A DNA stretch of 64,000 bases from Pelagibacteraceae bacterium AG-359-O02. GTDB lineage: Bacteria; Pseudomonadota; Alphaproteobacteria; Pelagibacterales; Pelagibacteraceae. A model generated the notes under the pieces. It was not told where the DNA came from, did no database searches, and was given only the letters and a program-made list of their open reading frames with translations. Below are positions 22,658 through 26,700 of this stretch, one piece after another. Where the stretch lies: positions 1-64,000 of the forward strand of contig QCEU01000002.1 in assembly GCA_003280485.1 (NCBI GenBank). The letters run 5' to 3'. The first letter of the stretch is position 1. Each line of letters opens with the position of its first letter. The position numbers and the translations under genes are program-made.

Positions 22658-23481
22658 TAAATATTTATATCTATTTCTTTGATACTAGATACAGGTCCTT
22701 TCATATGAATTTGTTGACTTTCATCAATAGAAATTATTAATTTTCCTAAACTGAATTCAATTTCAGTTCTAGAATTTTCTAATTTTTCTAAATTTGCAGC
22801 TACTGCTGTTGCACATGCAGCAGTTCCACATGCTTTTGTTAAACCTGCACCTCTTTCCCAAACTTTAATTTTATAATGATTTTCATTTAATTTTTGAGCA
22901 AGGGTGAAATTACATTTTTCCGGAAAAAATTCATGATTTTCGATCTCAGGTCCAATTTTTTCTAAATTGAAATTTTCTACATCATTTACAAAAAAAATAG
23001 CATGAGGATTACCTACGTTAATAGCTATACCGCCACTCACTGCTTGGTTATTGTTATCTTCTATAATTATTCCTAAATTTTTAGTGTCTAGTTTTTTAGA
23101 TAAAGGAATTTCATTCCAATTAGTTTTTGGTATACCAATTGTTGTTTCAACTTGACCATCATCAAGTAACTTTGAATTTAACTGTTTTGATGCTACTTGA
23201 ACGCTTATATTTTTTGTATTTTTTTCTTTTGATAATAAAAAGGCTACACATCTTGTACCGTTTCCACATGCGTCAGCTGCCGAACCATCAGAATTATAAA
23301 ACTCTAGATCAGCATCAGCATTATCACTGTTGTTAATATAGACTAGTTGGTCACAACCAATAAAGTTTCGATCACAAATTTTAATAATTTGATCCTTGTT
23401 TAATTCGACAGTATTTGACCTATTATCAATAATTACAAAATCATTTCCAAGACCATCCATTTTAAAAGCTTTAAATTCCAT
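22657..23481 (-). CDS. dapF: Diaminopimelate epimerase
   Basis: FKMDGLGNDFVIID, DACGNGTRCVA, GLTKACGTAACATAVAA. Confidence 0.95.
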   Translation of the reverse strand: MEFKAFKMDGLGNDFVIIDNRSNTVELNKDQIIKICDRNFIGCDQLVYINNSDNADADLEFYNSDGSAADACGNGTRCVAFLLSKEKNTKNISVQVASKQLNSKLLDDGQVETTIGIPKTNWNEIPLSKKLDTKNLGIIIEDNNNQAVSGGIAINVGNPHAIFFVNDVENFNLEKIGPEIENHEFFPEKCNFTLAQKLNENHYKIKVWERGAGLTKACGTAACATAVAANLEKLENSRTEIEFSLGKLIISIDESQQIHMKGPVSSIKEIDINI

Positions 23482-23537
23482 ATACTTCAGTATTTAACTT
23501 ATTTATTGACATTTTGAACCTCTATTATAGTTTATCG

Positions 23538-23641
23538 CCGTTTCCGCAAAATACAGCAATTTGCGGTGTCTTTGGTAACAAAGAGATCGACACCAGTCAG
23601 CGAGAGTTCGCCCACTGGTGCGATACTTGCTGGATGTGATT
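23538..23641 (+). ncRNA. Candidate structured RNA / cis-regulatory leader 5' of ffh
   Basis: CCGCAAA(23544-23550)/TTTGCGG(23560-23566); TCTTTG(23569-23574)-GTAA-CAAAGA(23579-23584), GNRA loop; CACCAGT(23591-23597)/ACTGGTG(23614-23620) enclosing GCGA/TCGC. Looks GC-richer than flanks and lies just 5' of the canonical ffh ATG. Confidence 0.7.
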
Positions 23642-25000
23642 ATGTTTGAAAATTTAACAAATAAATTTGAAGAAATATTTTCTTCTTTAAAAAAGGCGCC
23701 TTCGCTTGATGAAAAGCAAGTAGATGAGGGTTTAAGAGAGATTAGGCTTGCTCTTTTAGAAGCGGATGTATCTTTAGAAGTTGTAAAAGAATTTATAAAT
23801 AGAGTGAAACCCAAAGCTCTTGGTCAAGAGATCATTAGGTCTACTTCACCAGGACAGATGGTAGTTAAAGTTGTTAACGATGAGTTAATTTCTTTCTTAG
23901 GGGATAAAAATTCTGATATTGAATTAAATGCAGTACCTCCTGTTCCAGTGATGTTAGTTGGGTTACAGGGTTCAGGAAAGACTACAACTACAGCTAAGTT
24001 AGCAAGATTTTTAGAGGCTAACAAAAAGAAAAAAGTTATGATGGCTAGTCTAGACGTTTACAGACCTGCTGCACAAGAGCAACTAAGACTTTTGGGTGAG
24101 CAAAATAATATAATAACGCTTCCAGTTATCAAAGATCAACTTCCTGCAGATATTTGTAGAAGAGCGATTAGTGCTGCTAATCTTAATGGAGCAGATGTAA
24201 TTCTATTTGATACAGCCGGAAGAACTCAGATTGATTTACAAATGATGAGTGAGATTAAACAAATTGAAAGTATTATAAATCCGTCAGAGACAATTCTTGT
24301 CGCAGATTCTTTGACTGGCCAAGTAGCAGCTAATGTAGCTAAAGAATTTAAAAGTACTGTTAATCTGACAGGTATTATTCTTACAAGATCAGATGGTGAT
24401 GGAAGAGGTGGAGCAGCATTAAGTATGAAATATGTTGCAGATGTTCCAATTAAATTTTTAGGAGTTGGTGAAAAGATAGAAAATTTTGAAGTTTTTCACC
24501 CAGACAGAATTGCCAATAGAATTTTAGGTATGGGAGATATTGTTTCCCTTGTTGAAAAGGCTGCAGAAGATCTAGATGAAGAAAAATTAAAAAAAACAGA
24601 GGAAAAATTAAAAAAAGGTCAGTTCTCGTTAGAGGATTATCTTACTCAGCTAAGACAAATGAAAAAAATGGGTGGTATTGAAGGTATAATGTCTTTTTTG
24701 CCTGGTGTTTCAAAAGTTAAATCTCAAATGGATCAAGCTGGAGTGGATGAAAAAATAATTACTCAAAACGAGGCGGTAATATTATCTATGACTAAAAAAG
24801 AGCGTGAAAACCCTAAGATTATAGATGGTTCTAGAAAAAAAAGAATTGCTAATGGCTCAGGAACAGACGTAGCCACTATCAATAAATTGCTTAAGCAATT
24901 TAAGATGATGTCAGAAATGATGAAAAAAATGTCTAAAGGAAATACAAAAGGGATGATGGATAAAGGCATACCACCAGAACTTTTTAATCAATTAAAATAA
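23642..25000 (+). CDS. ffh: Signal recognition particle protein Ffh
   Basis: MFENLTNKFEEIFSSLKK start, GLQGSGKTTTTAKLA, DTAGRTQIDLQMM, Met-rich C-terminal M domain. The track start 23618 adds 8 non-canonical residues that overlap the RNA element. Confidence 0.95.
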   Translation: MFENLTNKFEEIFSSLKKAPSLDEKQVDEGLREIRLALLEADVSLEVVKEFINRVKPKALGQEIIRSTSPGQMVVKVVNDELISFLGDKNSDIELNAVPPVPVMLVGLQGSGKTTTTAKLARFLEANKKKKVMMASLDVYRPAAQEQLRLLGEQNNIITLPVIKDQLPADICRRAISAANLNGADVILFDTAGRTQIDLQMMSEIKQIESIINPSETILVADSLTGQVAANVAKEFKSTVNLTGIILTRSDGDGRGGAALSMKYVADVPIKFLGVGEKIENFEVFHPDRIANRILGMGDIVSLVEKAAEDLDEEKLKKTEEKLKKGQFSLEDYLTQLRQMKKMGGIEGIMSFLPGVSKVKSQMDQAGVDEKIITQNEAVILSMTKKERENPKIIDGSRKKRIANGSGTDVATINKLLKQFKMMSEMMKKMSKGNTKGMMDKGIPPELFNQLK

Positions 25001-25012
25001 ATAGGAGAACAA

Positions 25013-25441
25013 ATGTTAAAGATGCGTTTATCAATGGGAGGAACTAAGAAGAGACCAGTTTATAAGATAGTGGTTGCAGATAGTAGATTTCCAAGGGATG
25101 GAAGGTTTATAGAAAAATTAGGTTTTTTTAATCCTCTAATTCCAAGAGAAAAAAAAGAAAGAATGGGATTAGATGTTGAGAGAGTTAAGTATTGGCTGGG
25201 TCAAGGGGCACAACCAACAACTAGAGTTGCAAGGTTATTAGGAGAAAATGAGATTATGCCTATGCCAGCAAAAGGTAATAATCCTCAAAAAGCAATTCCA
25301 AAAAAAGATAGAAAAAAAACTGATGAGGGTGGCGAAGCTAAAGCAGATGCTCCTAAAACAGAAGCTCCAAAAGAGGAAGCTAAAACAGAAGCTCCAAAAG
25401 AGGAAGCTAAAACAGAAGCTCCGAAGGAAGAAGCTAAATAG
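25013..25441 (+). CDS. rpsP: 30S ribosomal protein S16 with repetitive C-terminal tail
   Basis: [38 protein letters not shown]; tail of (TEAPKEEAK)x3. Confidence 0.95.
25358..25438 (+). repeat. 27-bp in-frame tandem repeat x3 encoding TEAPKEEAK in rpsP
   Basis: Units 25358-25384, 25385-25411, 25412-25438 read directly; nearly identical. Confidence 0.95.
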
Positions 25442-25445
25442 AATA

Positions 25446-26129
25446 ATGTTTTTGTCTAGAGTATTTACGTTGTATCCTGAATATTTTCCTGGTTATTTGA
25501 GTAAAGGCCTTTTTGGAAAGTCAAAAGGAAAAGAATGGGATTTAGAAACAGTAAACATAAGAGATTATGCTTTAGATAAACATAAAACTGTTGACGACAC
25601 TCCTTATGGTGGAGGAAATGGAATGATTATGAAAGCAGATGTTTTGGCAAATTCATTAGATGCAAATATTAAGGCTAAAGAAAAAACCCTCTATTTAAGT
25701 CCAAGAGGAAAAGTATTTAATTCCAAACTTGCAAGAGAATTTTCGAATGAAAAAACAATCAATTTAATTTGTGGACACTTCGAAGGAGTAGATGAGAGAA
25801 TACTAGAAAGTAGAGATATTGAAGAGATTAGCATTGGTGACTTTATACTGTCAGGGGGTGAAGTTGCTGCATTTGTTGTAACAGACTCTATTTTAAGATT
25901 TATTCCAGGAATTCTGGGTAATATTAATTCCTCAAAAGACGAGAGTTTTGAGAATGGCCTTCTTGAATATCCGCAATTCACAAAACCTCAAGTTTGGGAG
26001 GAAAAAAAGGTCCCAAATGTGCTAATTTCAGGTGATCACGCCAAAATTAAAGACTGGCGTTTATCTCAATCTGAGGCTATAACACGCGACCGAAGACCAG
26101 ACTTGTGGCAAAAATATAAGAAAAATTAA
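25446..26129 (+). CDS. trmD: tRNA (guanine-N1)-methyltransferase TrmD
   Basis: [55 protein letters not shown]. Start trimmed from track start 25248, which reads through rpsP out of frame. Confidence 0.94.
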
Positions 26130-26130
26130 A

Positions 26131-26700
26131 ATGAAAAATATTGAAGAAATAAACAGATCAAATTTAAACAAGATTATTTCTGAGAGAAAACATCCTGATT
26201 TTTTCCCCGGAGACATCGTTAAAGTTGGGGTTAGGATAACAGAGGGTAAAAGAGACAGAATTCAATATTTTGAAGGTGTATGTATCGCAAAAAAGAGTAG
26301 AGACATCAATTCATCTTTTACTGTTAGAAAAATTTCTTTTGGTGAGGGAGTAGAAAGAACTTTTGCATTATACAGCCCAATTGTAGATACAATAAAAGTT
26401 GTAAGATCAGGAAAAGTAAGAAGAGCAAAATTATACTATCTAAGAGATAGAACTGGTAAATCTGCTAGAATAGCTGAAAAAATTAAGAAGACGATTGGTA
26501 TTGATTTAGAAACTAAAATTAATGAAGTTACTGAGGAAAACGTAATGCCTTCAACTGATCCTCAAACAGAAGCTTCAAAAGAAGAAGTTAAAGCAGAAGC
26601 TCCAAAAGAAGAAGTTAAAGCTGAAGCTACAAAAGAAGAAGTTAAAGTAGAGCCTGTAAAAACAGAAGAACCGAAAGAAAATCAAGAACAGAAAAAATAA
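26131..26700 (+). CDS. rplS: 50S ribosomal protein L19 with repetitive C-terminal tail
   Basis: [57 protein letters not shown]; tail [27 protein letters not shown]. Confidence 0.95.
26566..26646 (+). repeat. 27-bp-period in-frame repeat x3 in the rplS tail
   Basis: Units 26566-26592, 26593-26619, 26620-26646; each resembles the rpsP unit. Confidence 0.9.

Follow-up and report, generated by a model that had tools for sequence, protein, structure and literature searches.

Ribosomal-protein leaders are RNA elements bound by a protein that is encoded in the unit under their control. A leader responding to S16 has been proposed in Flavobacteria, which belong to another phylum than the bacteria considered here (Eckert and Weinberg 2020, PMC7247131). 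For the trmD operon, no form of regulation is known, according to a 2024 review (PMC10931766). The ffh motif was described by Meyer et al. in 2009 from Pelagibacter, Rhodobacterales, Sphingomonadales and Rhizobiales; these authors guessed that it regulates ffh in cis, saw no resemblance to the portion of 4.5S RNA that binds Ffh, and cited the detection of transcripts of the region in metatranscriptomes, while rpsP and S16 go unmentioned in their account (PMC2704228). A transcript detected in Mesorhizobium has been annotated as RF01793, the Rfam family of this motif (PMC5596092).

An RF01793 hairpin within a larger element upstream of ffh

The sequence analysed here, which we call the window, is a stretch of 64,000 nucleotides from the Pelagibacteraceae bacterium AG-359-O02 (contig QCEU01000002.1). 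An initial annotation, made from its letters alone, had singled out a structured RNA candidate directly 5' of ffh and raised the possibility of an 'ffh'-type motif catalogued from SAR11-related screens. This was correct, since the cmscan search that it had suggested matched positions 23576-23628 to Rfam RF01793 ('ffh') at 58.7 bits, above the gathering score of 35 (E = 1.3e-8), and no other Rfam family matched in the element region. The 104-nt segment is indeed visibly GC-richer than its surroundings, with 49% G+C compared to 31.6% for the window, and 0.11% of 104-nt windows are equally rich. Its folding energy over 23535-23660 is -37.4 kcal/mol (z = -2.38; equally low in 3 of 200 shuffles), and the assignment of the ffh start codon to the ATG at 23642 is in line with relatives.

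The three hairpins described earlier, as well as the alternative pairing GGTGTC/GACACC, are all present in the ffh leader within 23544-23620. HP1 (23544-23566; all features given here are on the forward strand) pairs CCGCAAA (23544-23550) with UUUGCGG (23560-23566). HP2 is longer than first described, extending over 23564-23589 as CGGU.G.UCUUUG-GUAA-CAAAGA.G.AUCG, with one G.G mismatch outside the inner TCTTTG-GTAA-CAAAGA (23569-23584). HP3 (23591-23620), which is the RF01793 hairpin, has seven outer pairs between CACCAGT (23591-23597) and ACTGGTG (23614-23620), followed inward by a C23598.C23613 mismatch, an A23599.C23612 pair, an inner GCGA/UCGC stem and a GAGU loop; its inner 'bulge' consists of the one C.C mismatch and the one A.C wobble-type pair. 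Behind HP3 lies a conserved single-stranded tail (23621-23633), which reads CGAUACUUGCUGG here and in SAR11 abuts a GGA ~9 nt before the ATG. The whole element (23564-23633) scores 69.4 bits with R2, a covariance model of HP2, HP3 and the tail that we built from 17 sequences, although this score is self-included because the window is one of the 17.

A perfect TTGACA is present at 23506-23511, ~30 nt before HP1. No -10 box follows it at a spacing of 16-18 nt, and a sigma-70 scan returned no site at the expected place.

Conservation of the hairpins and the tail

RF01793 matches were obtained from 50 of 61 close relatives and from 112 of 389 genomes of the class, and their surroundings were aligned. 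Compensatory changes proved abundant in the covariation test that the initial annotation had proposed. In HP3, 93.8% of cells are paired and both-sided changes occur at 10 of 12 pairs; the C.C mismatch is near-invariant (90 of 91 unique cores), and the position next to it is A.C in 54 cores, a standard pair (C-G, G-U, U-A or G-C) in 25 and A.A in 8. HP2 shows both-sided changes at all 8 modelled pairs, with 91.9% of cells paired across 93 sequences. Over the whole structure, 93.1% of cells are paired compared to 72.9% in shuffles and 32-43% when the structure is slid, and its covariation was reached in none of 500 shuffles. The motif itself is not new: with its bulged hairpin, its two conserved cytosines and its covarying stem, HP3 belongs to the catalogued family RF01793.

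Since the 93-sequence alignment had been fitted to the structure, we assessed HP2 in an independent fold test on 80 representatives, in which the HP2 region gave a mean z of -1.83 relative to shuffles and p<=0.05 in 36 of the 80. The real element is larger than the Rfam model, as HP2, directly upstream, belongs to it; of its two arms, the 3' one ('GAUCG') is treated as unpaired by Rfam, and the 5' one is not covered by the Rfam model. The published reading of RF01793 and its Rfam boundaries look wrong or incomplete. The initial annotation had named a lack of compensatory substitutions across SAR11, or of a transcript covering the element, as what would speak against it; neither is the case, because compensatory changes are abundant and metatranscriptome detection is cited in PMC2704228.

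The tail follows HP3 at a fixed distance, with the class consensus C-R-N6-G-N-UU-(G/U)-G among the 80 representatives (T at +10 in 86% and at +11 in 89%; G at +12/+13 in 54/68%). At one locus (L150), two copies of the tail sequence TGCAATAGTATGTAGGCA are present, the first behind HP3 and the second immediately upstream of the ffh ribosome site. The first 10 nt after HP3 contain 4.7 T on average compared to 2.6 further down, which, like the variable distance between the motif and the start codon, would suit a leader that acts independently of any protein, either as a structured 5' end for mRNA stability or processing or as a transcription pause or attenuator for the whole operon. We nevertheless consider a protein-independent leader unlikely, since the near-invariant C.C and the fixed tail resemble a recognition site, no terminator-like site (a G+C-rich hairpin followed by a U-run) occurs in 23400-23760 of the window, and the T-rich tail is found only in some relatives, with several Rhodobacterales-type members carrying A-runs in place of T-runs.

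HP1 is conserved in SAR11 and in Rhodobacterales-type loci, the latter being defined by likeness to named Rhodobacterales loci, and it is not general in the class. Within these two groups, HP1 can form in 21 of 35 non-redundant loci compared to 5.65 expected in shuffles, and both-sided changes are seen at pair 3 (G-C/A-U) and pair 4 (C-G/G-C) among sequences selected for pairing. The last three bases of HP1 are the first three of HP2 (CGG, 23564-23566), and this overlap is conserved in both groups; since both hairpins use the same CGG, HP1 and HP2 are mutually exclusive when complete. The earlier suggestion of mutually exclusive pairings stands for this competition, but the pairing that it had named does not, because GGTGTC/GACACC is not conserved in the class: 87% of its cells are paired in SAR11-type rows and 53% elsewhere, compared to 92% for HP2, and we rejected it as a conserved switch. 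A conformational switch through the HP1/HP2 overlap is possible. We also rejected a long-range pairing of the HP1 loop with the tail (CAGCAA/UUGCUG), as inspection by eye indicated that relatives such as L013 and L024 do not share the loop sequence.

R2 recovered 73 of 80 named rpsP loci, with a single weak off-target match (E 0.87). At E<=0.01 it gave matches in 193 of 389 Alphaproteobacteria, compared to 112 of 389 at E<=0.001 for RF01793, although these thresholds are unequal and R2 E-values are rough, with ten among the listed best scores falling between 0.001 and 0.01. With the corrected, larger model, about half of the sampled Alphaproteobacteria thus prove to have the element. The added matches are genuine, since all 32 loci matched by R2 alone precede ffh and 31 of them have rpsP, the exception being a contig end. 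All 72 matches in a phylum-wide sample fell within Alphaproteobacteria. At three loci labelled Rhodobiaceae or OCS116 cluster (L207, L229 and L230), ffh is followed by rpsP and no motif is detected at E<=1, which reflects either independent losses or very divergent forms.

Genes behind the motif and a lineage without ffh

In the window, the element precedes four genes on the same strand. The first gene of the unit is ffh (23642-25000), encoding the SRP54 protein and recognised by its open reading frame, its translation and a PF02978 match. It is followed by rpsP (25013-25441), assigned to ribosomal protein S16 by translation and linkage; trmD (25446-26129), assigned to the tRNA m1G37 methyltransferase by translation and gene order; and rplS (26131-26700), assigned to ribosomal protein L19 by translation and a PF01245 match at 26158-26481. 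By gene order, no rimM lies between rpsP and trmD in the window; rimM is missing from the SAR11 unit.

Across 55 motif loci sampled outside the family f36 (described below), Ffh is encoded behind the motif in 55, S16 in 54, TrmD in 52 and L19 in 48, and in these loci as well as the 32 found by R2 alone, the motif is always located 5' of the same operon and on the same strand. This constancy bears on the suggestion, made in the initial annotation and in line with the Rfam label 'sRNA', that an independent small RNA is made from the leader. The metatranscriptome transcripts cited in PMC2704228 and the Mesorhizobium transcript annotated as RF01793 (PMC5596092) would fit such an RNA, but a constant place before one operon and the lack of an intrinsic terminator in the window argue against it, and having found no specific support for an independent small RNA we regard it as highly improbable.

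The HP3-to-start-codon distance ranges from about 9 to 283 nt. The longest spacing among the fetched class loci is seen in L034 (1554-1836), where ~280 nt, apparently with a small open reading frame, separate the motif from ffh.

Three genomes keep the motif with a shortened unit. Aquabacter cavernae (L217) and Sphingomonas Leaf17 (L244) have the order motif-ffh-rpsP-rimM followed by genes on the opposite strand, and S. yantingensis (L245) has neither trmD nor rplS within 6 kb and, on the other strand, an S1-domain gene. In all three, neither trmD nor rplS occurs within about 6 kb after rpsP, and rplS is elsewhere in the genome. L217 also matches RF01793 (52.4 bits), while L244 and L245 match R2 only (32.1 bits). 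These loci are relevant to whether the element could be a ribosomal-protein leader with L19, the product of the last gene of the unit, as its ligand rather than S16. Leaders of the L19 type have been described in Firmicutes as well as Flavobacteria (PMC7247131), and rplS is downstream in 48 of the 55 loci; however, the motif is retained in Aquabacter and the two Sphingomonas with rplS outside the unit, and cmscan revealed no likeness to other Rfam families, which makes L19 an improbable ligand.

A second deviation is found in f36, a family of small-genome marine Alphaproteobacteria represented by single-cell genomes labelled PS1 clade, OCS116 cluster or Hyphomicrobiales (loci L155-L173, L191-L194 and L196). 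The motif occurs in 14 of 18 f36 genomes, and all 14 copies lie directly before rpsP, with ffh absent there; some f36 units also lack rimM, loci such as L173 having no room for it. Protein searches found Ffh in 0 of 15 f36 genomes, PF02978 was found in 0 of 11 (compared to 14 of 14 control genomes), an SRP54-type GTPase scored above the cut-off in 0 of 10, with one weak partial match, and SRP RNA was detected in 0 of 10. Since no confident SRP54-type GTPase was found in f36, FtsY is not detected there either. Although the drafts are 55-97% complete, the absence of three SRP parts from ten genomes, several of which are at least 95% complete, is hard to blame on gaps. From these searches, f36 appears to be without Ffh, FtsY and SRP RNA altogether, which would be unusual for free-living bacteria.

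A lineage without detectable SRP is a natural test of the purpose of the leader. Meyer et al. guessed at control of ffh, and the initial annotation likewise considered an ffh leader regulator; an SRP-linked leader would adjust ffh expression to what it senses, be it Ffh, SRP RNA or the load of signal peptides. While Ffh is an RNA-binding protein and in almost all genomes the motif is followed first by ffh, an element of this kind would occur only with ffh or SRP genes, whereas f36 keeps an intact motif without detectable Ffh, FtsY or SRP RNA and all 14 of its loci are without ffh. In addition, another gene lies between the motif and ffh in L199 (1134-2010, a glutathione S-transferase) and L204 (3263-4089), and the SRP helix-8 core is absent from the element. 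SRP-linked regulation is largely refuted by f36, and we consider it very improbable.

S16 as candidate ligand and comparison with known leaders

The element is a conserved structured RNA located 5' of a ribosomal-protein unit across a clade, and the motif-bearing units examined from f36, SAR11, Aquabacter and Sphingomonas intersect in rpsP only. Since the ligands of such leaders are encoded in their own unit and rpsP alone is always present, S16 is the likely ligand. Counting against an S16 leader, rpsP can be 2-3 kb behind ffh in Rhodobacterales, where the motif stays with ffh. In addition, f36 is a single lineage and a single evolutionary event, in which ffh was lost and the leader stayed beside the next gene; a neutral remnant is therefore conceivable, although both the hairpin and the core remain intact in 14 genomes. 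A separate oddity is L343 (G231 contig 222), in which only the first 137 residues of Ffh are encoded behind the motif and no S16 occurs within 10 kb, possibly due to an assembly break.

We propose, with a probability of about 0.58, that the element serves the (ffh-)rpsP-trmD-rplS operon as an autoregulatory leader whose ligand is S16; it would thus probably switch the production of a ribosomal protein rather than protein export. S16 in excess of free 16S rRNA would bind HP3 at its C.C/A.C site, with HP2 and the conserved tail supporting this binding, and bound S16 would lower expression of the operon at the translational or transcriptional level; ffh would usually be carried along as the first gene. 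Because the HP3-to-start distance varies so widely, control cannot act through direct masking of the ribosome site at all loci, although such masking is possible in SAR11, where the tail abuts the GGA.

S16 is bound at 16S h17 as part of its site on 16S rRNA (PMC5591316). No likeness of the element to the S16 site (h15/h17) was found in Alphaproteobacteria; a UCAGCG/CGCNNA likeness, present in E. coli h17, was discarded because it is absent from the 16S rRNA of Ruegeria, Rhizobium, Sphingobium, Azospirillum and Methylobacterium. Likeness to the 16S site is not a requirement for a leader.

A more far-reaching version, which we hold to be doubtful as a whole, would make RF01793 an S16-responsive leader through which SRP and ribosome genes are jointly controlled as a single operon throughout the Alphaproteobacteria. 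In SAR11 and Rhodobacterales, the switch would then be a conserved exchange of strands between HP1 and HP2, and one streamlined marine lineage would have shed the entire SRP system but kept the leader for its original purpose. With the S16 proposal, a motif that has carried the name of an SRP gene since it was catalogued in 2009 gains a testable new assignment; if the proposal is true, S16 gains a regulatory RNA in Alphaproteobacteria and the trmD operon a regulation.

Compared to described systems, the element shares with 4.5S SRP RNA (RF00169) only an SRP-related neighbourhood. RF00169 has no match in the window, and the SRP RNA of this genome has its own gene elsewhere (G000:C4:37323-37418, 42.1 bits), consistent with the initial description of a structured leader rather than 4.5S RNA. 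The L19 leaders of Firmicutes and Flavobacteria are alike in leading a ribosomal-protein gene that is also present in this operon, but they differ in that our region matches RF01793 alone in Rfam and that the motif is retained where rplS is unlinked. The motif of Meyer et al. (PMC2704228) is the same RNA, with the same HP3, place before ffh and sequence core; whereas their model is one bulged hairpin, the element described here also comprises a covarying HP2 and a conserved tail, joined by HP1 in some lineages, and we propose that it acts on the rpsP operon instead of ffh. The Flavobacteria S16 leader belongs to another phylum and is compared here by position and ligand; like the element in f36, it lies directly 5' of rpsP and has S16 as its proposed ligand (PMC7247131).
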